NCBI GenBank assembly: GCA_947600065.1
Contig: CANQFZ010000010.1
Location: 1 to 47,966 of the forward strand
Source: an uncultured Clostridia bacterium
Lineage (GTDB): Bacteria > Bacillota > Clostridia > Oscillospirales > Ruminococcaceae
Direction of reading: 5' to 3'
Length of the DNA stretch: 47,966 bases
The notes beneath the pieces are model-generated. The model was not told the origin of the DNA, did no database searches, and saw only the letters and a list, made by a program, of their open reading frames with translations. The translations under genes and the position numbers were made by a program. Below are positions 10,164 to 45,939 of this stretch, piece by piece; within the stretch, counting starts at the first letter, position 1; each line of letters starts with the position of its first letter.

Positions 10164-10187
10164 AAAGTATACATATGAAAAATATTG

Positions 10188-10196
10188 TGTTATAAT
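10188..10196 (+). promoter_or_regulatory. Extended -10 promoter of the first ClpP-like/VirD4-like unit
   Basis: TGTTATAAT, an extended -10 element, with no good -35 hexamer at 17 bases. The leader is about 75 bases and ends in SD AAAGGAG. A weak -35 next to a palindrome is compatible with activator or repressor control. Confidence 0.6.
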
Positions 10197-10275: not shown

Positions 10276-10857
10276 ATGTTAAACAGTATTATTTATGAAG
10301 ACGCACACGGTACAAATCAACTTGAGATTGAAGCAATGCTTGCGGCTAAAGGAAAAATATTCCTCACAGAGGATATTGACGCAGAAAATGCTTCATCAGT
10401 GATAAAAGCTATGATGGTGCTTGCGGACGACAACACGCCGATAACGCTGTACATAGACAGCTGCGGCGGAGAAATACGCTCAGGTCTTTCTATCATTGAC
10501 GCTATGGAGATGCTTTCAAAGAAAGTCGATATCAACGTTGTGTGCATGGGAAAGGCGTACAGTATGGCGTCGCTTATTCTTGCGGCAGGTACTAAAGGGC
10601 ACAGATACATTATGCCGCACGGAGAAGTTATGATGCACGAACCGCTTGTGGTGAACGGCGCGGCAGGCTCGGCAAGCTCGGTTAGAAATCAGGCCGACTC
10701 GCTTATTGCTATACGCGACAAGATGAGCGAAATGCTCTCGGCTTATACGGGACTTTCCACCGAGGAGATAAACGCGATAATGCACGCAAACACATATATG
10801 GACGCAAATGAAGCCATAAAAACAGGTATGGTAGATATGATAATCAAGGAACTTTAA
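10276..10857 (+). CDS. ClpP-like serine peptidase (S14), first copy, Ser-His-Asn triad
   Basis: 193 residues, the size of a mature ClpP subunit. The fold signatures are intact: TLYIDSCGGEIRSGLSIIDAM (handle/oxyanion region), GKAYSMASLILAAG with nucleophile Ser96, and RYIMPHGEVMMHEPL with His121. In the third catalytic position, where housekeeping ClpP has Asp in RDNFMSA, this protein has Asn172 (ANTYMDA). Listeria monocytogenes ClpP1 is a known active example of a Ser-His-Asn ClpP. It is followed 20 bases later by a VirD4/TraG-like ATPase gene rather than clpX, and the same pair recurs at 18708-20587. It is therefore unlikely to be the housekeeping clpP. Substrates and partners are unknown. 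Confidence 0.92.
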   Translation: MLNSIIYEDAHGTNQLEIEAMLAAKGKIFLTEDIDAENASSVIKAMMVLADDNTPITLYIDSCGGEIRSGLSIIDAMEMLSKKVDINVVCMGKAYSMASLILAAGTKGHRYIMPHGEVMMHEPLVVNGAAGSASSVRNQADSLIAIRDKMSEMLSAYTGLSTEEINAIMHANTYMDANEAIKTGMVDMIIKEL

Positions 10858-10877
10858 TTTTAAGGAGGACAAAATCT

Positions 10878-12167
10878 ATGATTTCAAATGACAATACAGG
10901 CAGGCTCTTTATGCCTGACGGCACCAGCTATACCAAGGACAGCAGCAAAACAGGGCTTAACAACAACATCGCCGTAATAGGGCCTTCGGGCTGCGGAAAA
11001 TCATCAGTCATGGGAGTTCTAAACTCCCTGAACTGCGGCGGAAGCGTGCTTATCTCCGATCCAAAGGGCGGTCTTTACCGCTCTTTGAAAGGCACGCTGA
11101 GGCAAATGGGATATAAGGTGATGAAGCTTGACCTTACTCACCCTGAAAGCTCAATGCATTACAATCCTCTCAGCTATATAAAAACCACCAACGATATACA
11201 AAAGGTTGCACATACTTTAGTATACGGCTCAACAGGCAATAAGTCCACTGCTCCCGACCCATACTGGGAGAGAGCTTCGGAAACATTACTATGTGCTCTG
11301 ATAGGTTATATGTACGAAAGACATGAGCCGGATATGGACATTGGTAAGTTGGTAAAGATGTTTAATGAAATTGAAATTTGCGAAGATATTGAAGAACGTT
11401 ATAAAAAGCCGATCTACAGGGATTTTATCAAGCATAAAACCGATTGCAGAATAATGGGCAAAGACAGCTGGGCATACTCAAAGTTCCACAATTTCATAAC
11501 GCTTTCGGAAAAAACACTTTCCTGCGTTGTAAGCACTTTAACGGCAATTCTAAACAACTTTGACAACGAGGAGCTGCAAAAGCTTTTCTCCGACGGTCAC
11601 TTTGACTTTACGAGATTTGGCAAAGAAAAAATAGCTATGTTTGTTATCGTGTCGGATACGGATCGTTCAAAAGACGCGATTGCAAATATGTTCTACTCGC
11701 AGGCATTAAACGAGCTTTGCGACTATGCGGACAATCACTGCGAAGGCGGAAGGCTGCCCGTTTCAATGACCTTTATAATGGACGATTTTGCAACAAACTG
11801 CCGCATTGAAAACTTTGACAATATCATCAGCAACATCAGAGCTCGAAACATTTCCACCATAATTATGCTTCAATCGCTCGGTCAGCTTGAAATAGGCTAT
11901 GGCGACAGCTATAAAACTATAATCAACAACTGCGACACCTTGATTTTTATGGGGGCTAATTCAACCGACGACGCGCGTTATTTTTCAGTCAAAGCAAACA
12001 AGCCGCTTCATACTATGCTCGAAATGAAGCTTTACTCAAGCTGGATATTCCGCCGCACAGAAAAACCCAGGTATGTAAAAAACATAATTCCCGATAATTA
12101 CATCAGCGAAGTAAACTCTATACTTTCCGATAACTCGGAGGAAAGTTTATATCAGCACGAGAATTGA
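10878..12167 (+). CDS. VirD4/TraG-like P-loop ATPase lacking the membrane domain, first copy
   Basis: 429 residues. It belongs to the coupling-protein (T4CP, TraG/VirD4) ATPase family: Walker A GPSGCGKS at 35-42, ISDPKGGLYR, HYNPLSYI, SDTDRSKDAIANMFY, Walker B FIMDDFATNC near 300, and the sensor-like IIMLQSLGQLEIGYGDSYKTIINNCDT. True coupling proteins are about 550-700 residues and begin with two membrane helices; here the P-loop is reached by residue 35, so the protein is predicted to be cytosolic. Walker B reads DD rather than the usual DE. No relaxase, VirB4 or other conjugation gene is nearby. SD AAGGAGG. It likely forms a hexameric motor; a link to the adjacent ClpP-like peptidase is inferred from repeated synteny. 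Confidence 0.88.
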   Translation: MISNDNTGRLFMPDGTSYTKDSSKTGLNNNIAVIGPSGCGKSSVMGVLNSLNCGGSVLISDPKGGLYRSLKGTLRQMGYKVMKLDLTHPESSMHYNPLSYIKTTNDIQKVAHTLVYGSTGNKSTAPDPYWERASETLLCALIGYMYERHEPDMDIGKLVKMFNEIEICEDIEERYKKPIYRDFIKHKTDCRIMGKDSWAYSKFHNFITLSEKTLSCVVSTLTAILNNFDNEELQKLFSDGHFDFTRFGKEKIAMFVIVSDTDRSKDAIANMFYSQALNELCDYADNHCEGGRLPVSMTFIMDDFATNCRIENFDNIISNIRARNISTIIMLQSLGQLEIGYGDSYKTIINNCDTLIFMGANSTDDARYFSVKANKPLHTMLEMKLYSSWIFRRTEKPRYVKNIIPDNYISEVNSILSDNSEESLYQHEN

Positions 12168-12220
12168 GCATTTTTACAGTCGGTTTCTTCACTTCTGCAA
12201 ATTTAAGTCAATAAAAGCTA

Positions 12221-12249
12221 TTGACATAACCACTTTTTTTAAGTATAAT
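12221..12249 (+). promoter_or_regulatory. Consensus promoter of the pRiA4b ORF-3 family gene
   Basis: TTGACA (12221-12226), 17 bases, TATAAT (12244-12249). It shows that the next gene is transcribed independently of the ClpP/VirD4 unit. Confidence 0.85.
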
Positions 12250-12307
12250 TAAGGAAAGAAGTGCTTTGATTTCCGATAGGTAATTTAAAATTAAAGGAGT
12301 GTTTACT

Positions 12308-12733
12308 ATGAAAAACAAAAAGCAAGGAAAGTCATATGTTTTCAGCGTTTCTGTCAAAAAGGGATGTTATCGTCACATTAAAGTTCCCGAGGACTATACC
12401 TTGGAGGAATTGGCGGATACGATACTATGGGCATTTGATTTTGACAACGACCACGCACATGCCTTTTTCATGGATAATAAAGAGTGGAGCAAAGACGACT
12501 GCTATTTTTTTGAAGATGCCTGCGAGTATGAAGAAGATCGCCCCACCTGCAATTATAAAATCAGCGAGATAGGATTGCTAAAAGGCAGTGCCTTTAAGTT
12601 CTTATTTGATTTTGGAGATAATTGGGTCTTTCAATGTAAAGTCCTGCGTATAGTTGATGAATTTAACAAAACCGCAGAACTTATAAAGGAATTTGGAGCA
12701 GCTCCCGTGCAATATCCCGATTATGATGAATAA
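12308..12733 (+). CDS. Plasmid pRiA4b ORF-3 family protein
   Basis: 141 residues, a recognisable pRiA4b ORF-3-like domain (PF07929 type). It has the N-terminal FSVSVKKGCYRHIKVPEDYTL strand region, the LADTILWAFDFDNDHAHAFFM segment, FLFDFGDNWVFQCKV, and the closing APVQYPDYDE. The family occurs on plasmids, next to insertion sequences and in many Clostridia; its biochemical role is not established. The start at 12308 has AAAGGAG eight bases upstream. It is a short protein for the family, covering the single conserved domain. Confidence 0.85.
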   Translation: MKNKKQGKSYVFSVSVKKGCYRHIKVPEDYTLEELADTILWAFDFDNDHAHAFFMDNKEWSKDDCYFFEDACEYEEDRPTCNYKISEIGLLKGSAFKFLFDFGDNWVFQCKVLRIVDEFNKTAELIKEFGAAPVQYPDYDE

Positions 12734-12822
12734 TGTTTTACGTTGGATACATAACAATTCAGCACAGCAAAACGCTTTCACTTGTAAAACCGCAATATAA
12801 CATAAAAAGGAATGATGCTATA

Positions 12823-13137
12823 TTGTCAACTTATGTAATGTCCGACATACACGGAATGTATGATCTGTTTTTGAATATACCGGAGCAGATAGACCTTAAA
12901 GATAACGATACTTTGTATGTAATGGGCAACGTTCATAACTTAAAGTATTTTGACGACATATATCTCGTCACAGGACATACCCCGACCTTACTTATGAAAG
13001 ATGAACCGTCGGCAGGCAGGATAATTAAGAAAAACAACCACATCGCCATAGACTGCGGCGGATTTCTTCACGGAGGGAGACTTGCGGCGATTTGTCTTGA
13101 TAACGGCGAAGAGTATTACGCTGATAATCCCAAATAA
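12823..13137 (+). pseudogene. Remnant of a PPP-type metallophosphoesterase with internal in-frame deletion
   Basis: The reading frame starts like a serine/threonine-type protein phosphatase: STYVMSDIHGMYDLF carries the DxH metal motif, followed by DTLYVMGN where the GDxxDRG motif should begin. It then jumps directly to the C-terminal part DDIYLVTGHTPT, IDCGG and GGRLAAICLDNGEEYY. The DRG and GNHE motifs and roughly 90-100 residues between them are missing, so two of the metal-binding motifs are lost. I read from a TTG at 12823 preceded by AAAAAGGAA; the frame is open back to 12733, but that part is not homologous in appearance. Most likely a decayed gene. Confidence 0.75.
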
Positions 13138-13142
13138 AAGAT

Positions 13143-13176
13143 GCACCGAACAGAAAAAATGTTCGGTGCTTTTTTA
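13143..13176. terminator. Bidirectional terminator between converging genes
   Basis: GCACCGAACA (13143-13152) and TGTTCGGTGC (13160-13169) form a perfect 10-bp stem, with seven T on the plus side. The minus side reads TCTTTTATTT. It separates the phosphatase remnant from a small minus-strand gene. Confidence 0.9.
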
Positions 13177-13287
13177 TGCATATATGTTCGAAATAGATAC
13201 TGCGTTTACGCGCGCAAGCTGAACAAAACCGTTCATCAGCGTGTTTTCAATGAAATCGTAAAGCTCACTTTTGTCCTGCGAAGCCAT
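13174..13287 (-). CDS. Small 37-residue protein of unknown function
   Basis: The reading frame runs from ATG at 13287 to a TAA that touches the bidirectional terminator. Translation begins MASQDKSELYDFIENTLMNG and ends in ARVNAVSISNIYA; it is mildly amphipathic with no membrane helix. The ATG is preceded by AAAGAGGTAA at a good distance, and TATATT-like -10 sequences lie further upstream. The combination of an SD, a complete frame and a matching terminator on its strand supports a real gene, but I recognise no homologue. Confidence 0.5.
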   Translation of the reverse strand: MASQDKSELYDFIENTLMNGFVQLARVNAVSISNIYA

Positions 13288-13420
13288 TTTGCCTGTTACC
13301 TCTTTAAAAATATACAAAAATTTTTGGTACTATCTAAATATAAATGTAAGACATTTCGCCACAGATTGTAGTTAAACTGTTGTTAAATTCAAAATGATAA
13401 ACAGCAAATTAAAAAAGGGC

Positions 13421-13449
13421 TTGAAAACTGAAGCGGAAAATTGTATAAT
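13421..13449 (+). promoter_or_regulatory. Promoter of the AlkZ-related/macrodomain operon
   Basis: TTGAAA (13421-13426), 17 bases, TATAAT (13444-13449), about 50 bases before the TTG start of the next gene. Confidence 0.85.
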
Positions 13450-13500
13450 GTAAATGAAAAAAATTGACGAAAGAATGGTTTTAAAAGGTAGGTCTTTCAA

Positions 13501-14175
13501 TTGAAATTCAGAAAATTAAAAACACCCGAGGATATTATAAAGGTCGTAGAAGAAATAGGATTCCTTCCATTTTTTGCAAACGGGATAGAGGGATTTTCCG
13601 TAGAAGAAAACTGTCCCGCAGAGTTATGGTTCGCTCCCGACAAGGACGGACCGTGGGAATGGAAAGGTCCTATTGCGCAGGACGGGCGCTGCGTTTATGG
13701 AAAGGTTTTCGCGGGAAAGGCGGGATTTATAAGCAAGGAATGGTATCCCGTCTTAGCCAACTACCGCCGCAACGGCTATGATTTTGACGCAAGATGGGAC
13801 GACGGGCTTGTGTCAAAAAAAGACAAGGATGTATACGACCTTATCTCAAACAACGGCACTATAATCTCAAAGCAGATAAAAAGCGCGCTGAACTACAGAA
13901 AAGGCGAAAACGTAGGTTTTGAAACGGTAATAACGCGTCTGCAAATGCAGACTTATGTAAACACTGCAGATTTTGTTTATATGAAGGACAAACGCGGAAA
14001 CGTCTACGGCTGGGGCGTTGCGGAATACACCACTCCGGAAGCCATGTTCGGAAAGGATTATATCTCAAAGGCATATTCAGAAGAGCCCGAAAGGTCGTTT
14101 GAGATAATCAAGGAGCATCTTTTAAAGACGCTGAAAAACGCCGATGAGAAAGTATTAACGAAGCTTTTAAAATAA
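13501..14175 (+). CDS. AlkZ-related protein (conserved, function unproven)
   Basis: 224 residues. The sequence fits a widespread Firmicutes family annotated as AlkZ-related: GFLPFFANGIEGFSVEE, ELWF..DGPWEWKGPI, GKAGFISKEWYPVLANYRRNGYDFDARWDDGL, ITRLQMQTYVNTADFVYM and YGWGVAEYTTPE. AlkZ itself is a winged-helix DNA glycosylase, but this family lacks clear proof of glycosylase activity. The start is a TTG after GGTAGG; no ATG lies nearby in frame. A macrodomain-HTH gene follows 28 bases after its stop with no terminator between, so the two are probably co-transcribed. Confidence 0.75.
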   Translation: MKFRKLKTPEDIIKVVEEIGFLPFFANGIEGFSVEENCPAELWFAPDKDGPWEWKGPIAQDGRCVYGKVFAGKAGFISKEWYPVLANYRRNGYDFDARWDDGLVSKKDKDVYDLISNNGTIISKQIKSALNYRKGENVGFETVITRLQMQTYVNTADFVYMKDKRGNVYGWGVAEYTTPEAMFGKDYISKAYSEEPERSFEIIKEHLLKTLKNADEKVLTKLLK

Positions 14176-14203
14176 GATTTACGGGCAAAGAAATGGGGTG
14201 ATG

Positions 14204-15685
14204 ATGTTGCCGCTGAAAATAATATCGGGAGATATTCTAAGTCAGAAAGCCGACGCTATAGTTATTCCCGTTCACAAAGGTTATACGCGTGTTCACAGAG
14301 GAGCTTCGGGAAGATTTGCGGCTCTTGTCGGGGAAAATAAACTCAAAGAAAAGCTTTCCGAATTTTCAGAATACGGAGAAATAGCAGTAACTGACGGTCT
14401 GAACTCCAACTTCAAAAACATCATATTCATCTGCGTTCCCAACGTATACTACAGCAATAATGAGAAAAGCAAAAAATACTGTATGTATCTCCGAACAGCC
14501 TGTCTTAAAGCTTTAAAATGGGCGGACGACAACAGACTTAGCTCCGTTTGTTTTCCTCTGATTGGCGGGGAATTATTCCGAGATATAACCGAAAAAATTA
14601 TGACAGCAGCTATAAGGGCACATATCAGATGTGAGGAATCCTGTATGAACATTTCTCTCGTTATACCGCTGTCTGAGAAGCCGCAGGAAGAACAGCATAA
14701 CGATGCTGCGGGACTGAAGATAGTTACGGGCGATATTTTAGATTATAATTCGGAAGCAATGGTTATTCCTATAAAGGAAAATTCATTCAGGTTTGACGCT
14801 ATGACCGGAGCTCCGAGGAGAATGGCGACAGTCGGCGGTCTCCTTTCACAGATAAGACAGATAAAAGACCTTCCGCTCGGAGGGATAAAGGTAATAGACG
14901 GAAAGCCGCTAGGCTGTCAAAGCATTTTTTTAGCGCATTTTCCTTATTCATTTGCCGAGGGCTCAAAAAATGAAAAACAAACTCGCTTTATAGTAAGTAG
15001 GTGTTGTTTGAGAATACTTTCATATGCGGAAAAAAGCAGGATAAAGAGCATTTCATTTCCAATTCTCGGAGGAATGAAATACAGGGATATGTTTGAAAAA
15101 TGTATGTCTGAATCAATAGGCGTGCATTTCAGAAGCTCGGAGCCTTGTATCAATGTTTATCTTGTAAAGCCTGTTGAATTTTGGGAGACTAATGAGAATA
15201 AACCTAAAGAACAGCAGCTTGATTTCAGCGAATATCACGGATTTGACAAGAACTTTGAAAATGCCGTAAAAAGCTCTGGACTTGAAAAAAGTGAATTTTG
15301 CAGGAAACGGCTGAATGAATATCTGAGCAAATACATAGACAATGTTGAAGCACTGGCAAACGAGATAGGATATGACAAAGGCAGCATATGCAAATTCAGA
15401 AGCGGGAAAATAAGAAAGCCTCAGAAACACCGTGTAATTGCGCTGGCTATAGGTATGAGATTATCAAATGAAGAACGCTATGAGTTTATACGCTGCGCAG
15501 GATATCAATATCCCGAGGACGAGCGCGACAGGCTCGTCGAAACTCTCATACATTCGGGACTTAAAAAATTTGACGAGATAAACGAAAGGCTATTTGACGA
15601 GGACCCCGACTTTTCTCTTGACAAGACAATTAAATCTCCCTCTGCGAAAAAAATATCAAGGAGTAATTTCATGGATCAGAAATAA
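14204..15685 (+). CDS. Tandem macrodomain protein with C-terminal HTH domain
   Basis: About 494 residues in three parts. Macrodomain 1 (roughly 3-160) begins LKIISGDILSQKADAIVIPV; macrodomain 2 (roughly 172-328) begins LKIVTGDILDYNSEAMVIPI. Each keeps the GDI...A(I/M)V strand and the FP(L/I)(I/L)GG loop. In both, the NAAN motif that contacts the distal ribose is replaced by VIP(V/I), so they probably bind rather than hydrolyse, or use another ligand. Residues about 345-495 form an XRE-like HTH module seen in clostridial proteins (LANEIGYDKGSICKFRSGKIRKP, then ERYEFIRCAGYQYP). The start is uncertain between ATG 14201, ATG 14204 and TTG 14207 because GGGGTG lies very close. Likely an ADP-ribose or nucleotide-responsive regulator; that is inferred. 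Confidence 0.85.
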   Translation: MLPLKIISGDILSQKADAIVIPVHKGYTRVHRGASGRFAALVGENKLKEKLSEFSEYGEIAVTDGLNSNFKNIIFICVPNVYYSNNEKSKKYCMYLRTACLKALKWADDNRLSSVCFPLIGGELFRDITEKIMTAAIRAHIRCEESCMNISLVIPLSEKPQEEQHNDAAGLKIVTGDILDYNSEAMVIPIKENSFRFDAMTGAPRRMATVGGLLSQIRQIKDLPLGGIKVIDGKPLGCQSIFLAHFPYSFAEGSKNEKQTRFIVSRCCLRILSYAEKSRIKSISFPILGGMKYRDMFEKCMSESIGVHFRSSEPCINVYLVKPVEFWETNENKPKEQQLDFSEYHGFDKNFENAVKSSGLEKSEFCRKRLNEYLSKYIDNVEALANEIGYDKGSICKFRSGKIRKPQKHRVIALAIGMRLSNEERYEFIRCAGYQYPEDERDRLVETLIHSGLKKFDEINERLFDEDPDFSLDKTIKSPSAKKISRSNFMDQK

Positions 15686-15705
15686 CCCTTAAGCCGAATT
15701 GCAGC

Positions 15706-15746
15706 GACCGAAGAGGAAATTTTTTGAAATAGTTTTCCCTTCGGTC
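15706..15746 (+). terminator. Terminator of the macrodomain operon
   Basis: GACCGAAG (15706-15713) pairs with CTTCGGTC (15739-15746), enlarged by GG/CC; a CCCCTTTTAAA tail follows. A second small hairpin ACCGCC/GGTGGT (15768-15785) is followed by a T run and may be the efficient terminator. Confidence 0.6.
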
Positions 15747-15820
15747 TCCCCTTTTAAAAATTTGCATACCGCCGTTTTTGGTGGTTTTTTCACAAATTAG
15801 GTTTTTATGTGAAAATAATG

Positions 15821-15849
15821 TTGTTTTTTTTATTCTGATGTGCTATAAT
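15821..15849 (+). promoter_or_regulatory. Promoter of the NSS transporter gene
   Basis: TTGTTT (15821-15826), 17 bases, TATAAT (15844-15849), then an SD TGGAGG before the ATG at 15883. Confidence 0.75.
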
Positions 15850-15882
15850 TTAAATAGCGATTTTTTGATTTGGAGGTAATTT

Positions 15883-17280
15883 ATGGAAAAAGCAACAAAA
15901 CGACATTCTTTCACGGGGTCGCTCGGGTTTGTACTTGCTGCGGCAGGAAGCGCTGTAGGACTGGGAAACATATGGCGGTTTCCTTATCTTGCGGCAAAAG
16001 ACGGCGGAGGGCTTTTTCTGGTTATTTACATTGTTCTGGCGTTTACATTCGGGTTTACGCTGCTTATAACCGAGATATCCATAGGCAGAATGACAAAGCA
16101 AAGCCCCCTCACCGCATACGGCAAGCTTAGTTCCAAATGGAAGCCGCTCGGAGTTATTGCGTGTATAGTTCCTGCGATAATACTTCCCTATTACTGCGCG
16201 ATAGGCGGGTGGGTAATAAAATACCTTTTTGTTTTCATCACGGGCGACGGCATTAAAGCGGCGGAAAACGGCTATTTCACCTCTTTTATTTCAAGCGAGA
16301 TCGAGCCTGTTATAATGATGTTAATTTTTCTTGCGATCACAGCTTTTATCGTATTCAGGGGCGTAAACAATGGAATTGAGGCAATGTCGAAGATCCTTAT
16401 GCCTGTGCTGCTGATACTCGTTATTGTCATAGCGATATTTTCTCTTACACTCACTCACACAGACGACAGCGGCGTTACGAGAACGGGACTTGAAGGACTG
16501 GGAAAGTTTGTTATTCCCGATTTTTCAAATATAACCGTGAGCAGCTTTTTCACTACGCTTCTTGACGCTATGGGACAGCTTTTCTTCAGTCTTAGCGTCG
16601 CAATGGGAATAATGATAACATATGGTTCTTATGTAAAAGACGACGCGAACCTTAAGACCTCGATAAACCGAATTGAGATATTTGACACGCTTGTAGCATT
16701 TCTTGCGGGAGTTATGATAATCCCCGCGGTTTATGCGTTTGAAGGAAACGAGGGTATGTCCTCTTCGGGACCCGGTCTGTTGTTTGTCACGATGCCGAAA
16801 GTATTTGCACAAATGGGCGATATAGGAAGGTTTGTCGGGATACTATTCTTTGCCATGATACTTTTTGCGGCGCTTACAAGTGCGGTTTCAATAATGGAAG
16901 CGGTCGTTTCCAGCCTTATGGACGGAATGCGTATGTCAAGAAACAAAGCGACGAGCATTGAAACACTGATAACGCTTATTGCGGCGCTTCTGGTATGCTT
17001 CGGATATAATTTACTTTATTTCGAGGCAAAGCTCCCGAACGGAACGACAGCGCAGATACTCGACATATTGGATTATATAAGCAACAACCTGCTTATGCCG
17101 ATAGTCGCGATACTGACCTGTATACTAATAGGCTGGGTAGTAAAGCCCCACACGGTGATCGAAGAAGTTGAGAAAACGGGCTGTAAAATGAGCAGAAAGA
17201 CTTTGTATATCGTTATGATAAAGTTTGTGACGCCCATATTGCTCGTGGTTCTTCTCGTAAAGTCGATAGGGTTGTTTTAA
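15883..17280 (+). CDS. Neurotransmitter:sodium symporter (NSS/SNF) family transporter
   Basis: 465 residues with 11-12 hydrophobic segments, the usual size for bacterial NSS proteins such as LeuT, MhsT and TnaT. The TM1 signature SLGFVLAAAGSAVGLGNIWRFPYLAAKDGGG holds the unwound helix that coordinates Na+ and substrate. The family imports amino acids or related amines with Na+; the exact substrate cannot be read from sequence. The C-terminus ends in a final membrane helix and a very short tail. It has its own promoter and is closed by a strong terminator. Confidence 0.95.
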   Translation: MEKATKRHSFTGSLGFVLAAAGSAVGLGNIWRFPYLAAKDGGGLFLVIYIVLAFTFGFTLLITEISIGRMTKQSPLTAYGKLSSKWKPLGVIACIVPAIILPYYCAIGGWVIKYLFVFITGDGIKAAENGYFTSFISSEIEPVIMMLIFLAITAFIVFRGVNNGIEAMSKILMPVLLILVIVIAIFSLTLTHTDDSGVTRTGLEGLGKFVIPDFSNITVSSFFTTLLDAMGQLFFSLSVAMGIMITYGSYVKDDANLKTSINRIEIFDTLVAFLAGVMIIPAVYAFEGNEGMSSSGPGLLFVTMPKVFAQMGDIGRFVGILFFAMILFAALTSAVSIMEAVVSSLMDGMRMSRNKATSIETLITLIAALLVCFGYNLLYFEAKLPNGTTAQILDILDYISNNLLMPIVAILTCILIGWVVKPHTVIEEVEKTGCKMSRKTLYIVMIKFVTPILLVVLLVKSIGLF

Positions 17281-17297
17281 AATATCTTTTAATAACT

Positions 17298-17335
17298 GAG
17301 CCGCTTTATGTACAGATAAAGCGGCTCTATTTCTT
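17298..17335 (+). terminator. Terminator of the NSS transporter gene
   Basis: GAGCCGCTTTAT (17298-17309) and ATAAAGCGGCTC (17316-17327) form a perfect 12-bp stem followed by TATTTCTTT. Confidence 0.85.
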
Positions 17336-17339
17336 TAAA

Positions 17340-18554
17340 TCACTTTTTATGGGTCAACTTATAGATAAGACAAAGAATACCGACAACGGCTGCTCCGATA
17401 AAAACAACGCCTACAAATGTTTGTGCAGCAGGAACATAATATTCTATCTCAAAAGGTCTGCCCGTACAAGTGCAATCTCCGCTGCCGAAAAGGATAATAA
17501 TTTCAATAAATACAACTATAGCATAAATTATGCCCAGAACACTTGCAAATGTCTTATAACCGTCTTCATCGTTGTCCGCGGATTGATTATTAGTGTTTTT
17601 ATTGGGAGCGTTTGTGATTTTTGCACTGCCATAGGGGTTGTTTGCGGAAGCGTTGGCGCTGCTTGGAGAGGAGCTTTTCTGATAATAGGGGTTAGGCTCT
17701 GAGCAAAAAGGACACCTTTCCATTGTCTTTGTAATTATTTTTGTACAAACTGAGCACTTCAGCTCCTGCGAATATTTTTTCGGATGATAATGCTCGGAAA
17801 GGGTTTCGGAATTTGAGTTTGTCGAAAATGCAGCTTGCATTTTCTCATAAGCCTCGTTATATTTATCCAAAAGAGCTGTGCTTTTACGCGCCTTATCAGC
17901 CTTTATTGCAGCGTCTTTATAATTGCCAAGCGCTTCAAACTCTTTTGCCGTCTCGGCGAAACTATCTACGCTTTCCGCTTTTTTCATTGCCTCATCTGCC
18001 GCAGCATAACGCTTTTCCTTGTTACTTTCAAGACAGCCGTCTGCCAGCTGTGCAGCGTCCTCAAAATCCCCTAACGCACGGAACATCTTTTCGGCTTCAA
18101 GAAAATCATCGGGTGTCTTCGCGGTTTTTGATTTTATATATGCATCGTTGTACTTGCTCAGTTTTAAATCATACCGACACTTTTCCAAAAGCTGTTCGCT
18201 GTCCTTATAATTTCCCAGATATTTCAGGTTATTTTCGGCGTCTTGGAATTCCTGCGTGCTTTTAGCGTTTTTTAACAGTGAAATTGTGCTGTCGTATAAT
18301 ATGGGAAACTTTTTTACGCGGCATTTTTCGACATACTCCGCAGAATTTTTATAATCTCCCAACTCTTTAAACGTGCTTTCCACCTTGTCTAATTCTTCAA
18401 TAGTCTGCGCGTTATCAAACTCTTTTATGGCGTTGTTATACACCCAAAGCTGAGAGTTTATTGCCTTTTCCTCTTTCATTTCAACAGCAGTTCCGCACTT
18501 GAAGCAAAAATCGCTGTCATCGGGAATTAAATTTCCGCACTTTCTGCAAAACAT
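17340..18554 (-). CDS. Double zinc-ribbon, repeat-containing membrane protein
   Basis: 404 residues. The N-terminal zinc ribbon is MFCRKCGNLIPDDSDFCFKCG (1-21). Residues about 28-235 hold five tandem helical repeats of the type LGNYKDSxxxxxKC(R), a short TPR-like repeat common in clostridial zinc-ribbon proteins. A second zinc ribbon with CSVC...CPFC lies near residue 270. After a Ser/Asn-rich linker come two membrane helices (about 335-358 and 375-400) and a basic tail. SD GGAGG. It lies downstream of the second ClpP/VirD4 pair on the same strand, 153 bases away, so it could be read from that promoter; it may anchor or scaffold something at the membrane, but no function is established. Confidence 0.8.
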   Translation of the reverse strand: MFCRKCGNLIPDDSDFCFKCGTAVEMKEEKAINSQLWVYNNAIKEFDNAQTIEELDKVESTFKELGDYKNSAEYVEKCRVKKFPILYDSTISLLKNAKSTQEFQDAENNLKYLGNYKDSEQLLEKCRYDLKLSKYNDAYIKSKTAKTPDDFLEAEKMFRALGDFEDAAQLADGCLESNKEKRYAAADEAMKKAESVDSFAETAKEFEALGNYKDAAIKADKARKSTALLDKYNEAYEKMQAAFSTNSNSETLSEHYHPKKYSQELKCSVCTKIITKTMERCPFCSEPNPYYQKSSSPSSANASANNPYGSAKITNAPNKNTNNQSADNDEDGYKTFASVLGIIYAIVVFIEIIILFGSGDCTCTGRPFEIEYYVPAAQTFVGVVFIGAAVVGILCLIYKLTHKK

Positions 18555-18707
18555 AATTTTCCTCCAAAAAATGACAACATTTTCTTTTAATTATATCATT
18601 TTTGCTCAAGCCTTTGGTATGCAAACCGCTTACAAATTTAAAATCAATAACGCTGAAATATCTAAGGACAATATTATTTTACAGAATTTTGAGATTGCAC
18701 CGAATAG

Positions 18708-19997
18708 TTATTTATTGCTTCTTGTATCTTTTGTTCTTTCGGACGGAAGAACGGTATGTGTATAAACGGGCTGAGAGCCTCGTCTGAATACCCAGCAGTT
18801 GCCAACAGGCATATACAATATCTGTTGGACGGGTTTATTACAGCGCAATGCAATGGATTCCGCCGTGTTGTAATCGTTTCCGCCGAGGTAAACATAAGTG
18901 TCGCAGTTTGCGATTATAGTAGCGCTATCGGAGCCATAACCTTGTATAAGCTGCGATTCCGCCTGTATCATCAACATAACCGAAATGCTTCTTGAACGTA
19001 TGGTGGAGATCATACGCGGAAACTCTTCTATCTTACAGTTTGTAGCAAAGTCATCAAGGAAAAAACGAACGGGTACGGGAAGTCTGCTGTCGGGCTGTTC
19101 GTCTGCAAATCGGCAAAGCTCCTGCATTGCCTGGGTAAAGAAGATGTTGGCGAGCGCGTCCATTGAGCGGTCGGTATCGCTTATGGTGACGAAAACAGCC
19201 GTCTTTTCGTTTCCTATATCTCTGAAAGTAAATTCGTTATGCGACATCATTTCCTGTAGCTCGGGCGTGTCGAAGTTTGAAAATTTGGCTACAAGAGTAG
19301 AACGTATAGTGTCATAGGTCCTGTTCGGCGCGGCGTTTACATTTTCAAACTGGCCGCAAGCCCAGCTGTCGGTCGTTTTGCTGCTAAGCGATTTAAAGCG
19401 CCTGGAAAGCCTTGAGGATTTGTATTCGTCATCATCAGACCCGCCTCTTTCACCCTCGCGCACAAGTCTGAGAATACCGCTGAAATTAAAGGGAGTATAG
19501 TTTGTTTCGACCATATATCCTATGATAGAAGAAAGAAGGATAGTTGTCATAGCATCCCAGAAAGGGTCTGCCGAAGTGTGTTCGGAGGCTTTTTTGTCTA
19601 CGATTATGTTTGTGATTTTCATAATATCCTGCGACGTCTTTACAAATTTTAAAGGGTTATAGTGCGCCGATTTGTCGGGTGCGGTAAGGTCGATATTTAT
19701 GACATTATATCCTTTTTGGCGAAGATAGCTTCCGTATTTTCGGTATAGATTTCCCTTAGGGTCGGATACGATATAGCTTCCGACTGCCTGCAATAAATTC
19801 GGTATAACTATCGTCGAGGTTTTTCCCGTACCGCTGCCGCCTGCTACAAGAATATTGTTGTTCAGTCTGGTCTTTACATCATTAAGACTATAGCTACAGT
19901 TTTCCGCTATTATAACCTTGCTGTTCGCAAACTCCATGCTTGCTGATTTACTTTCGGGAAAAACAAGTTCCTCAGGAAAATAAAATTCGTTTTTCAT
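18708..19997 (-). CDS. VirD4/TraG-like P-loop ATPase lacking the membrane domain, second copy
   Basis: 429 residues, exactly the length of the first copy and clearly homologous to it along the whole sequence. Walker A is GGSGTGKT at 53-60, Walker B VRFFLDDFATNC near 310. Shared blocks are VSDPKGNLYR, HYNPLKFVKTSQDI, DSWACGQF, ISDTDRSMDALANIFFTQAMQELC, STIRSRSISVMLMIQAESQL and ATIIANCDTYVYLGGN. As in the first copy there is no N-terminal membrane helix, and Walker B is DDF. The ATG overlaps the ClpP-like stop codon (ATGA), with SD AAGGAGG inside the ClpP-like gene, so the two proteins are translationally coupled. It is probably a hexameric cytosolic motor; substrate unknown. Confidence 0.88.
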   Translation of the reverse strand: MKNEFYFPEELVFPESKSASMEFANSKVIIAENCSYSLNDVKTRLNNNILVAGGSGTGKTSTIVIPNLLQAVGSYIVSDPKGNLYRKYGSYLRQKGYNVINIDLTAPDKSAHYNPLKFVKTSQDIMKITNIIVDKKASEHTSADPFWDAMTTILLSSIIGYMVETNYTPFNFSGILRLVREGERGGSDDDEYKSSRLSRRFKSLSSKTTDSWACGQFENVNAAPNRTYDTIRSTLVAKFSNFDTPELQEMMSHNEFTFRDIGNEKTAVFVTISDTDRSMDALANIFFTQAMQELCRFADEQPDSRLPVPVRFFLDDFATNCKIEEFPRMISTIRSRSISVMLMIQAESQLIQGYGSDSATIIANCDTYVYLGGNDYNTAESIALRCNKPVQQILYMPVGNCWVFRRGSQPVYTHTVLPSERTKDTRSNK

Positions 19998-20587
19998 ACT
20001 TCCTCCTTTTCAAAAACCGAGTTTACTATTTTATCGCATATTCCAAATTCAACAGCTTCTTTGGCATTCATAAAATTATTAAACAACGTTGCGCTGTTTA
20101 TTTCTTTGAGAGTTTTTCCCGTGTGCTTTGCGAGGATACTGTTTACAAGATCTCTCGTTTCTATAATGGATTCGGACAAGTGTCGTATAGAAGTAGCCGA
20201 GCCGCTTATTTCTCCCTGTAGAATAGCCTCGTGTATCATAACGCTGCTGTGAGGAAGGATAAAGCGTCTACCCTTCTGCCCCGAAGCAAGCAGCACAGCC
20301 GCCATACTTGATGCGCTGCCGATACAGTACATATTGATTTCGTTTTTAAAGCCCTGTATGATGTCGTACATTGCAAGTCCCGATTCTATTTTTCCGCCCT
20401 GACTGCTTATATAAATATCAACAGGTCCGTTGTTGCGCGAAAGATACATCATCTTCCTTGTAAATTCGCTGGTGGCGTTTTCATCTATCATTCCTTCAAT
20501 AAACACTTTTCTTTCCGTCAGGAGAAGCGCGTCAACGGGAAATGACTGTGTGCCTCTTGCAGTTTCTTCAATGTAGCTTATGCTCAT
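19994..20587 (-). CDS. ClpP-like serine peptidase (S14), second copy, Ser-His-Asn triad
   Basis: 197 residues from the preferred ATG; an in-frame ATG three codons earlier at 20596 sits only one base after the SD AAAGGA. Counted from that earlier Met, the nucleophile is Ser97 in GSASSMAAVLLASG, the base His122 in LPHSSVMIHEAI, and the third position is Asn173 in FNNFMNA where housekeeping ClpP has Asp. PVDIYISSQGGKIESGLAMYDII is the conserved handle region. It overlaps the VirD4-like gene by four bases. Only moderate similarity to the first copy suggests two old paralogues, not a recent duplication. It could form homo-oligomers or mixed rings with the other copy. Confidence 0.92.
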   Translation of the reverse strand: MSISYIEETARGTQSFPVDALLLTERKVFIEGMIDENATSEFTRKMMYLSRNNGPVDIYISSQGGKIESGLAMYDIIQGFKNEINMYCIGSASSMAAVLLASGQKGRRFILPHSSVMIHEAILQGEISGSATSIRHLSESIIETRDLVNSILAKHTGKTLKEINSATLFNNFMNAKEAVEFGICDKIVNSVFEKEEV

Positions 20588-20627
20588 AGTTTTCATATCC
20601 TTTCGTCATTATTTTGTTTACGCTTTT

Positions 20628-20656
20628 ATTATAGCAGCAATACCCGAACAGTTCAA
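20628..20656 (-). promoter_or_regulatory. Promoter of the second ClpP-like/VirD4-like unit
   Basis: On the minus strand TTGAAC (20651-20656), 17 bases, TATAAT (20628-20633), preceded by TGC (extended -10). The leader is about 35 bases. Confidence 0.85.
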
Positions 20657-43386: not shown

Positions 43387-45939
43387 TTAAGCTATGTTAC
43401 AATAAATAAGTTCTTTTCTGAGGTATGCTTTGTCCTCTTCACTGACACTGCTGTATAAATACAAATATTCCAGATTTTTCAGATTTGAAAGCGGCTTTGC
43501 ATCATATATAACATTGTCGTACAAACTTAGAATTGTAAGATTTGTAAGACCCGAAAGGGCAGATACGTCGGTTATCTGATTTGAGTGCAAATCAAGATGT
43601 TCAAGCGCTTTCAGGTCCTTTAGCGGGGACAGGTCTTTTACATCATTGATCCACATATCGAGCCATTCCAGCTTTGTGAGTTTTTCAAGCGGCGTTATGT
43701 CCGAAATATGACAAGCACTTACATCAAGTGTTTCCAGATTTAAAAGGTTTGCGAGCGGAGAAATATCGCTTATCGAATTGCTGTACAGATACAGGATTTT
43801 AAGGTTTGTAAGCTTTGAAAGAGGTTCAAGGGATGATATACCGGTGTTAAACAAGTAAAGTTCTTCAAGCTGCGTGAGATCTTTTAAGGATGAAATGTCT
43901 CCTACAATGTTATTTTCAAGCCAAAGATTCTTTAAATTTGTAAGACCTTTAAGCGCCGATATGTCTTTTATTTCCGTGGAGGCGAGGTTTAAACCCGTTA
44001 GATTGCGAAACTTTGAAATAGTCTCTATGCTGCCTAATTTATTCCCTTCTAAATTTAAATAAGTCAAACCCGTTAAACCTTCAATGGGCGAAATATCGGT
44101 TATCTGATTTTCGCCGAGCCAAAGTTTTTTAAGAGCATTGAAGTTTTGGAGATTGGTTATATCGCTTATCTGATTCTGACTAAGATCCAGATATGTGATC
44201 TGCGTCATATTTTCAATCGGCGAAAGGTTTGTAATCTTATTTCCGCGCAGATCTATTTCCTTTAAATTCGGCATATTTTTAAGCGGCGACAAGTCGCTTA
44301 TCTGCCCGTTTTCAAGCTCTAAGTGCGTTACATTTACAAGCTTGCCTATTTCTTTAAGATCGGCGTCTGTAATACCGTAATTGTTTAGCTGCAAAATTGT
44401 TGTTTGCGCTATATCGAAATCCATGCCGCGGATCGAAACTTTTCCGCTTGCGGGAGGAGTGCTTGAAGACGACGAGCTGCTTTTTGAAGAGCTTGATCTG
44501 CTGCTCGAAGATGATCTTGATGAACTTGAAGAGCTGCTTGAATATGATCTTGATGAACTTGAAAAGCTGCTTGAAGAACTTCTTGATGAACTTGAAGAGC
44601 TGATAGTAGGATTACTTGATGAACTTGAAAAACTACTTGATGAGTTTACTGACGCAAAGCTCGAAGAACCGCTGCTCGAAGAGAAAGAGCTTTCCGAGCT
44701 GTAAGGACCCGAAGCAGCCGAATTAGGCGCGCTCTGCGAACTTTCGGCGGGACGGCTATATGTAGGCTCTATAATTGCCCCGACATTATTGCTGCTTGAC
44801 TGAACACTCCCGACGATATATCCTCCTATGTCCGACATATATGACGAGTTATTTAAGGCGAAGGCGGTTATCCCCACGCCCAGAAGCAGCACCGCAGCTG
44901 AAGCGGAAATTGCAGTAAAATATTTTCGTTTTGAATAAGAACGAATTATTTTTTCGGGAGGAGTTTCGGGCTGTACGGTGGGAATATCGGGCTTTCTTAT
45001 AGCAATGCCGGTAAGTTTATAAGTGCCGTTTGCGACAGACAAAAGCGCGCTTTTCATTTCCTCGGCAGAAGAAAACCGATCGTTCGGATCAAATGCACAG
45101 GCGCGAAGAATGACTTCCGCCATTTCGGGAGAAGCATTGCGCGGCGCAAAAAGCTGTTCTCCGCGAAGTCTGCGATCTATTGCGTTTTTACGCTCATCGG
45201 GATTTAAGATCTGTTTTTGGGCGTCAAGAAAAGGCAGTCTGTTTAAATTTAAAAGGCGGTATAATACGATACCGAGCGAATATATGTCCGCGCGCGAATC
45301 GTATTTTTTGCCCATTGCCACTTCGGGCGCCATATAGTTCATCGTGCCTTTCTGAGAATACCCGACCGTCAGATTTTCCATTTTGCGGGCAATTCCGAAA
45401 TCGCCGAGCTTGAAATAACCGAAATCGTTTATGAAAATATTTTCTGGTTTTATATCGCGGTGTATGATATTGCGCTTGCTGCATATCTCAAGAGCCTCGC
45501 AAATATCGCAGCCGAGCTTTATAATTTCTTTTTCGCTGAGCTTCTTGTCGCAAATATATTTATTCAGGGTCGTAAGCAATTCCATTCTGATAAGAATATC
45601 CCAGCCGATCTCATTTTTCTTTTCTATGACTTTATAATCTTCTATGCTTACGATATTCTGAACACCCTTAAAGGACTCCATCAGCCGGATTTCATTTATA
45701 AAATCATCTACTATCCCGCGCAGAAACGTTTTCGTGGCGTCCATGTCAATTCCCTCGGAACGAAGCGAATCAATCTCAGCGGGATCTGAGGGTATGGATA
45801 TAGTTTTTATAGCAGCATAACTTTTGACGTTATAATCATTTCTTACAGCTTTATAAACTGACCCGTAAGAACCCTTTCCAAGCGGCTTTGCTTCTATTTC
45901 CCACTCGGGCCAGATCTGCTTTATAATATCACTTATCAT
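43387..45939 (-). CDS. Transmembrane eukaryotic-like Ser/Thr kinase with extracellular leucine-rich repeats
   Basis: 850 residues. Cytoplasmic kinase domain about 15-300: Gly loop GKGSYGSVYKA, Lys45 in AAIK, catalytic HRDIKPEN, DFG in GDFGIARK, and GTMNYMAPEVA. A membrane helix lies near residues 340-360 (YFTAISASAAVLLLGVGITAFAL). A long Ser-rich linker (about 395-495) probably crosses the wall. The C-terminal domain has 13 internalin-style 22-residue LRRs (LxxLxLxxNxIxDISPL) plus a part repeat. Bacterial receptor kinases usually carry PASTA repeats; LRRs suggest sensing of a protein or glycan ligand outside. SD GAGG; a consensus promoter lies 130 bases upstream. Confidence 0.93.
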   Translation of the reverse strand: MISDIIKQIWPEWEIEAKPLGKGSYGSVYKAVRNDYNVKSYAAIKTISIPSDPAEIDSLRSEGIDMDATKTFLRGIVDDFINEIRLMESFKGVQNIVSIEDYKVIEKKNEIGWDILIRMELLTTLNKYICDKKLSEKEIIKLGCDICEALEICSKRNIIHRDIKPENIFINDFGYFKLGDFGIARKMENLTVGYSQKGTMNYMAPEVAMGKKYDSRADIYSLGIVLYRLLNLNRLPFLDAQKQILNPDERKNAIDRRLRGEQLFAPRNASPEMAEVILRACAFDPNDRFSSAEEMKSALLSVANGTYKLTGIAIRKPDIPTVQPETPPEKIIRSYSKRKYFTAISASAAVLLLGVGITAFALNNSSYMSDIGGYIVGSVQSSSNNVGAIIEPTYSRPAESSQSAPNSAASGPYSSESSFSSSSGSSSFASVNSSSSFSSSSSNPTISSSSSSRSSSSSFSSSSRSYSSSSSSSSRSSSSSRSSSSKSSSSSSSTPPASGKVSIRGMDFDIAQTTILQLNNYGITDADLKEIGKLVNVTHLELENGQISDLSPLKNMPNLKEIDLRGNKITNLSPIENMTQITYLDLSQNQISDITNLQNFNALKKLWLGENQITDISPIEGLTGLTYLNLEGNKLGSIETISKFRNLTGLNLASTEIKDISALKGLTNLKNLWLENNIVGDISSLKDLTQLEELYLFNTGISSLEPLSKLTNLKILYLYSNSISDISPLANLLNLETLDVSACHISDITPLEKLTKLEWLDMWINDVKDLSPLKDLKALEHLDLHSNQITDVSALSGLTNLTILSLYDNVIYDAKPLSNLKNLEYLYLYSSVSEEDKAYLRKELIYCNIA

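Follow-up and report, generated by a model that had tools for sequence, protein, structure and literature searches.

A ClpP-like peptidase and a VirD4-type ATPase without a membrane anchor form a conserved two-gene unit in gut Clostridia

The window analysed here is a stretch of 47,966 nucleotides, contig CANQFZ010000010.1 of assembly GCA_947600065.1, which is contig C10 of the 2.22 Mb, 98.6% complete draft genome (G000) of an uncultured Clostridia bacterium. Twice, on opposite strands, it carries a gene for a ClpP-like peptidase beside a gene for a VirD4/TrwB-type ATPase without a transmembrane (TM) anchor. In pair A, on the forward strand, a ClpP of 193 residues (10276..10857) keeps the catalytic Ser and His and has Asn at the catalytic Asp position; after a gap of 20 nt comes an ATPase of 429 residues (10878..12167) with the Walker A sequence GPSGCGKS and the Walker B-type sequence IMDDFATN. 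In pair B, on the reverse strand, a ClpP of 200 residues with the same Ser, His, and Asn (19994..20596) is followed by an ATPase of 429 residues (18708..19997), the ClpP stop and the ATPase start overlapping by 4 nt. The matches to Pfam CLP_protease (155.6 and 161.9 bits) and T4SS-DNA_transf (144.6 and 169 bits) are all above cut-off. The open reading frames (ORFs) and the Pfam matches thus bear out an earlier note, made from the sequence alone, that had described the unit as present twice, overlapping in its second copy, with ATPases of equal length. Its coordinates hold for pair A; the start that it gave for the pair B ClpP, 20587, falls on an ATG inside the frame that opens at 20596. The ATPases are 41% identical over 400 residues and the ClpPs 39% over 187, so that its description of the copies as old paralogues is fair.

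A third pair, C, lies outside the window on contig G000:C1 (locus L010), with the ATPase at 11683-13011 and the ClpP at 13011-13697, both on the reverse strand and overlapping by 1 nt. Since a ClpP adjoins all three PF02534 matches of the genome, the adjacency is not a matter of chance. The genome has six PF00574 matches, namely the three paired ClpPs, a housekeeping-type ClpP (L001), a TepA-like protein near spoIIIE (L012), and an ORF resembling a phage head protease next to portal- and terminase-like ORFs (L011); the names of the last two rest on sequence and context and not on a family search. Promoter-like sites precede both window pairs: TATACA-17-TATAAT at 10168..10196 on the forward strand, about 80 bp before pair A, and TTGAAC-17-TATAAT at 20628..20656 on the reverse strand, about 30 bp before pair B, each with a TG before the second hexamer. 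These are consensus matches only, and the evidence is weak in view of the numbers in shuffled sequence (11 such sites here versus 6.6 in shuffles, sd 2.6, and 9 versus 5.3, sd 2.4).

The ClpP-like protein and the VirD4-like ATPase are a conserved two-gene unit of gut Clostridia. A species-wide scan gave 195 relatives of the ATPase, and among the best 80 of these a ClpP lies on the same strand within 1.6 kb at 71 loci. This neighbourhood survey, a test that the earlier note had set beforehand, therefore finds homologues of the pair usually adjacent. At three further loci (L035, L078, L091) the contig end falls inside the ATPase region, and at six (L042, L060, L072, L079, L083, L090) no ClpP stands beside the ATPase. 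The genomes of L072, L083, and L090 have a ClpP of the paired type elsewhere, scoring higher with the paired than with the housekeeping profile and with no ATPase within its 1.5-kb flanks; the L060 genome contains another ClpP–ATPase pair. The best 80 relatives come mostly from Clostridia, Oscillospiraceae, and Lachnospiraceae, and one record is labelled Muribaculum; the pair at L041 is from an isolate, Butyrivibrio sp. CB08. Within the bacterium's own family there are 24 full-length matches to the short ATPase in 15 of 197 genomes, and a ClpP lies within 0.5 kb of 23 of them, the sole exception (G167:C1, L185) having none in 7 kb. Ordinary type IV coupling protein (T4CP)-type ATPases, taken as controls, have a ClpP beside them in 0 of 15, 0 of 26 (L156-L181), and 0 of 32 cases (L191-L222), where L172 duplicates L115, the flanks extend at most 1-4 kb and less at contig ends (L109 has 134 nt upstream), and some of the 32 are fragments.

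Beyond the family the short ATPase is patchy. It occurs in 4 of 200 genomes of another family, in G000 and G063 only in a phylum scan of 398 genomes, and in G000, G063, G156, G523, and G486 only in a class scan of 391, although both scans can miss divergent ATPases because of their E-value limits and the scoring of at most four candidates per genome. In G523 and G486, which belong to other families, a ClpP is again adjacent. The two proteins also occur together: all 15 genomes that have the short ATPase carry a ClpP scoring 140-182 bits, versus 0 of 80 family genomes without a full-length one (Fisher p 9e-18), a co-occurrence that is a description and not a blind test because the band was derived from the same 15 genomes, the 80 being the first listed and not a random draw. 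Among these 80 the intermediate ClpPs are a 139-residue fragment in G034 (188 bits) and the ClpP of G031 (216 bits). Chance adjacency is rejected by the three of three matches in the source genome, the 71 of 80 loci, the family counts, and this co-occurrence.

The 80-locus scan, the source genome, and the family loci together give 85 distinct pairs, with one ClpP that lies between two ATPases (L052) counted twice. ClpP comes first in 75 and after the ATPase in ten. The ClpP-first pairs have a median gap of 4 nt, with 63 at 40 nt or less and 26 overlapping; the gaps are lower bounds because the most upstream ORF starts were used. Three pairs (L032, L044, L086) are more than 400 nt apart. No ClpP–ATPase fusion was noticed in the ORF tables, which were not searched systematically for one. 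The nearest relatives of the two partners coincide for 47 of the 85 pairs (permuted mean 1.0, maximum 5, shared species history included). Moreover, the paralogues retain their partners on both sides, A with L096/L097, B with L014, and C with L095, while a C-type ClpP beside a main-type ATPase in L069 (6300-8230) is an apparent partner exchange.

The ATPase has the RecA core and the all-alpha domain of T4CPs. In the AlphaFold model of the pair B monomer (predicted local distance difference test score, pLDDT, 91.6) the best PDB match is TrwB, and the comparison lists HerA, HerA-SIR2, HerA-DUF4297, and HerA-NurA complexes below it. The three ATPases of the genome fall above cut-off in the NCBIfam conjugal transfer CD1115 family; therefore, common descent with the coupling proteins of integrative and conjugative elements (ICEs) is likely. 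The TM anchor is missing: none of 85 paired ATPases has a hydrophobic 19-mer (mean at least 1.6) before Walker A, whereas ordinary T4CPs have such a stretch in 14 of 15, 23 of 26, and 25 of 32 cases, the misses being mostly fragments or just below threshold. Walker B reads Asp-Asp in 85 of 85 paired ATPases versus Asp-Glu in 57 of 57 ordinary T4CPs, and about 30 residues are absent between positions 372 and 405, the all-alpha segment being as long as in ordinary T4CPs.

All 87 paired ClpP rows retain Ser97, 83 retain His122, 78 Asp171, and 77 the full triad. Hence the Ser-His-Asp triad is a feature of the family and not of the two window copies, which have Ser-His-Asn; in the ClpP of pair C the triad is intact. 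Several positions separate the paired ClpPs from 15 housekeeping ones: 116 (His in 85 of 87, versus Asn in 13 and His in 2 of 15), 123 (Glu in 74 of 87 versus Gln in 15 of 15), 170 (Phe, Tyr, or His in 70 of 87 versus Arg in 15 of 15), and 82 (Gly, Ser, or Ala in 70 of 87 versus Tyr in 15 of 15). Position 60 does not separate the two groups. F82 belongs to the pocket in which AAA+ partners dock, and R170 to the inter-ring sensor. The substitutions fit a chamber whose contact with its ATPase is partly altered, and they are no proof of one. The three paired ClpPs of the genome score below every listed NCBIfam ClpP cut-off.

A second ATPase lineage, lineage II, is also paired with ClpP. In G019 (L182/L186) a longer VirD4-like ATPase is followed 4 nt downstream by a ClpP, and ClpP is directly downstream in five of the seven members (L186, L187, L188, L223-L226), of which L223-L226 were assigned by profile score, outside the tree. 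The lineage-II ATPase ORFs have about 500-610 residues. L186-L188, L225, and L226 show no hydrophobic window at threshold; L223 and L224 show one each, inside the core. The ATPase branch has support 96 (three rows, long branches). The lineage-II ClpPs of L186 and L188 share a branch with housekeeping ClpPs (support 98), with the paired class outside and the inner order unsettled; the paired rows themselves are not one clade in the tree because the long-branched pair A and C types fall apart. The catalytic Asp is kept in four of six lineage-II or nearby ClpPs. The grouping of lineage-II ClpPs with housekeeping ones suggests that two independent ClpP–VirD4-type pairings are likely, if unproven. 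A gene of about 210-250 residues precedes and overlaps the ATPase in L223, L225, and L226, and proteins of this size without a Pfam match, overlapping the lineage-II ATPase start (L268:5234-5893, L270:4704-5444, L226:2942-3580), are candidate adaptors. Elsewhere, L267 in G031:C13 (1857-4439) encodes a 208-residue ClpP and, immediately after it, a 651-residue AAA+ ATPase (PF00004, AAA_lid_6) resembling CbxX/SpoVK, a single case from which it follows that accessory ClpPs can have a neighbouring ATPase gene of their own.

Beyond the two partners the loci share no constant gene, so that an obligatory third component was rejected. Macro-domain proteins are encoded in 20 of the 82 neighbourhoods, in one branch of the pair, and 17 of these 20 have them directly upstream of ClpP; two of three that were scanned match helix-turn-helix families. 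They are partial partners at most, possibly ADP-ribose-linked regulators. TIR, PARG-type, and AlkZ-related proteins are further neighbours, and the rest are varied chromosomal genes (302 neighbour proteins at up to 81 loci, 25 commonest families per scan). In the window a macro-domain protein of 495 residues (Pfam; 14198..15685, forward strand) lies between pairs A and B, adjoined by an AlkZ-related gene (PF24741, 275 bits; 13501-14175), and a short ORF at 12733-13137, calcineurin-like phosphoesterase by eye and without a Pfam match, is apparently a remnant. The window also encodes CTP synthase, an RNA methyltransferase, GerA germination proteins, cysteinyl-tRNA synthetase, and glutamate synthase, a gene content that makes it ordinary-looking chromosome. 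An 850-residue protein kinase with leucine-rich repeats lies at 43387-45939; kinase and FHA genes adjoin a few pairs in other genomes. Beside pair C, and divergent from it, L010:14786-18136 encodes a helicase of 1116 residues (PADLOC DpdF, 247 bits).

We propose, as the rather more probable reading, that the products of the two genes make up a soluble, ATP-dependent protease of two components. ClpP-like subunits would build a barrel-shaped peptidase chamber, and a ring of the anchorless ATPase would sit on the chamber end as unfoldase and gate. The ATPase would recognise substrate proteins, probably via its all-alpha domain, and thread them into the chamber using ATP. Such an architecture is plausible because relatives in the superfamily, the HerA complexes, associate with enzyme partners. 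From the genes we infer the assembly of an ATPase hexamer with a ClpP heptamer, their physical docking, and the translocation of polypeptide and not DNA, as well as what the substrates would be, the direction, and the regulation. Whether the pairs amount to a new class of ATP-dependent protease, a ClpP chamber with an anchorless motor of the FtsK/HerA superfamily instead of AAA+, with at least two separate origins from different coupling-protein-like ATPases, we regard as evenly balanced.

A number of observations weigh against the protease. The main cautions are the Asp in place of the Walker B glutamate, which may slow hydrolysis, the Asn-type triads of the window, and the fact that no docking motif is apparent. 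Asn replaces the catalytic Asp in L014, L096, and L097 as well as in both window ClpPs, and the triad is incomplete in ten of the 87 rows. Among the ATPases no conserved ClpP-docking tripeptide of the IGF/LGF type was found, the sole common [LIVMF]G[FLY] site being present in 41 of 85 and also in 49 of 57 ordinary T4CPs. Docking-pocket positions 62, 112, and 114 are largely as in housekeeping ClpP, so that the change in the pocket is a partial one. A search of the genomes of the lone ATPases L042 and L079 gave no paired-class ClpP, and none adjoins ATPases L185 and L190. Of 20 weaker matches to the lineage-II profile (L227-L246), one, L233, lies about 770 nt downstream of a ClpP, and the association with ClpP thus extends somewhat beyond the two ATPase groups; L233 is a VirD4-like ATPase of 625 residues with a TM-like window, outside both groups. 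After thinning to below 60% identity the concordance is modest (11 of 43, permuted maximum 7, shared species history again included). Finally, proteins related in fold transport both DNA and protein.

The best rival is a DNA-sensing complex of the HerA kind: the ATPase ring would load on DNA, and ClpP would be the effector that degrades proteins on or near it, in phage defence or genome upkeep. The analogy with HerA-SIR2, HerA-DUF4297, and HerA-NurA, all recovered below TrwB in the fold comparison, argues for it, as do the patchy distribution (15 of 197 and 4 of 200 genomes, with several paralogues in some), the macro-domain, TIR, PARG-type, and AlkZ-related neighbours, and the DpdF-like helicase at locus C. 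Yet in PADLOC-DB 2.0.0 ATPases A and B match nothing but mad8, and that weakly (28 bits), while ATPase C and the three ClpPs match no entry, which makes a known defence system improbable; the neighbour families are varied chromosomal genes, and viral contigs yielded one short ATPase relative, 44% identical and without ClpP. We consider this rival unlikely. Origin as a phage or plasmid gene was rejected: plasmid relatives are 32-36% identical (15 listed of 1381 records), the annotated ones being conjugal or type IV secretion system (T4SS) DNA-transfer proteins, and phage relatives are at most 37% identical (15 listed of 33).

The CD1115 placement of the three ATPases could instead mean that the two genes are co-transcribed and act separately, the ATPase a domesticated conjugative relic and the ClpP an accessory peptidase using host ClpX or ClpC, which are presumably present. 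Adjacency that survives reversed gene order (10 of 85) and recurs in two ATPase lineages, a ClpP unlike the housekeeping one at position 82 and others, and the lack of this ClpP class in genomes without the ATPase (0 of 80 carry it) make separate action improbable. For a conjugative-element relic as such, descent is likely shared, yet no conjugation context was found around the pairs. The earlier note had raised regular relaxase and VirB4 neighbours as a sign of such a relic; of the 15 ATPase-carrying genomes, nine, among them that of the source bacterium, have no PF03432 relaxase, and in the remaining six about 17 kb separate the ATPase from the closest relaxase on its contig. No T4SS family is among the 25 commonest per scan, a listing made without a VirB4-specific model. 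Of the two ideas in that note, the motor-plus-chamber complex fits the sequence evidence best. The other, a degradation-linked secretion device in which a type IV channel would still receive its cargo from the ATPase, with ClpP trimming it, draws on homology to T4CPs, which feed such channels; with no ATPase having an N-terminal anchor, relaxases distant or absent, and no T4SS context seen, it is unsupported and we hold it very improbable.

The energy-dependent proteases described so far (Clp, HslUV, Lon, FtsH, proteasome) are, to our knowledge, all driven by AAA+ motors, and the unit has the look of an ATP-driven protease of a kind not yet described. If so, motors of the FtsK/HerA superfamily could unfold and thread proteins for degradation, which would explain why some gut Clostridia possess genes that would be annotated as conjugation ATPases yet have no relaxase. 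It would also provide a soluble system of two components in which to ask whether coupling proteins unfold and move protein substrates by themselves. No description of a ClpP–VirD4 unit was found in the literature, which is weak evidence, as most subscription papers lie outside full-text search. A Legionella study, on the deletion of ClpP and the translocation of Dot/Icm effectors, concerns a different matter (PMC4969725).

Compared with ClpXP, ClpAP, and ClpCP, the unit shares a ClpP-family protein with a Ser/His/(Asp) site, here with the ATPase gene adjoining. It differs in that the neighbouring motor is of the PF02534 VirD4/TrwB type and not an AAA+ Clp/HSP100 protein, and in a ClpP that departs at positions 82, 116, 123, and 170 and falls below the NCBIfam ClpP cut-offs. 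With the T4CPs (VirD4, TraG, TrwB; CD1115) it has in common the RecA-type core, the all-alpha domain, the TrwB fold, and a score above the CD1115 cut-off; unlike them, the paired ATPases have no N-terminal TM anchor, read Asp-Asp instead of Asp-Glu in Walker B, are about 30 residues shorter (372-405), and have a ClpP neighbour instead of a relaxase within about 17 kb (15 genomes). The L267 locus of G031 likewise has an accessory ClpP with an ATPase gene at once behind it, but its motor is AAA+. TepA, a ClpP-like protein, is found near SpoIIIE in Firmicutes, another ClpP-fold protein near an FtsK-type motor gene and one present in the source genome too (L012). However, the TepA-like protein scores 77 bits to PF00574 versus 155-162 for the paired ClpPs, and an uppP-like gene separates it from spoIIIE. 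HerA ATPases are gene-paired with a nuclease or NADase partner, and HerA-NurA, HerA-SIR2, and HerA-DUF4297 resemble the proposed complex in joining a ring ATPase of the same superfamily to an enzyme; there the partner is a nuclease or NADase, whereas here it is a peptidase.
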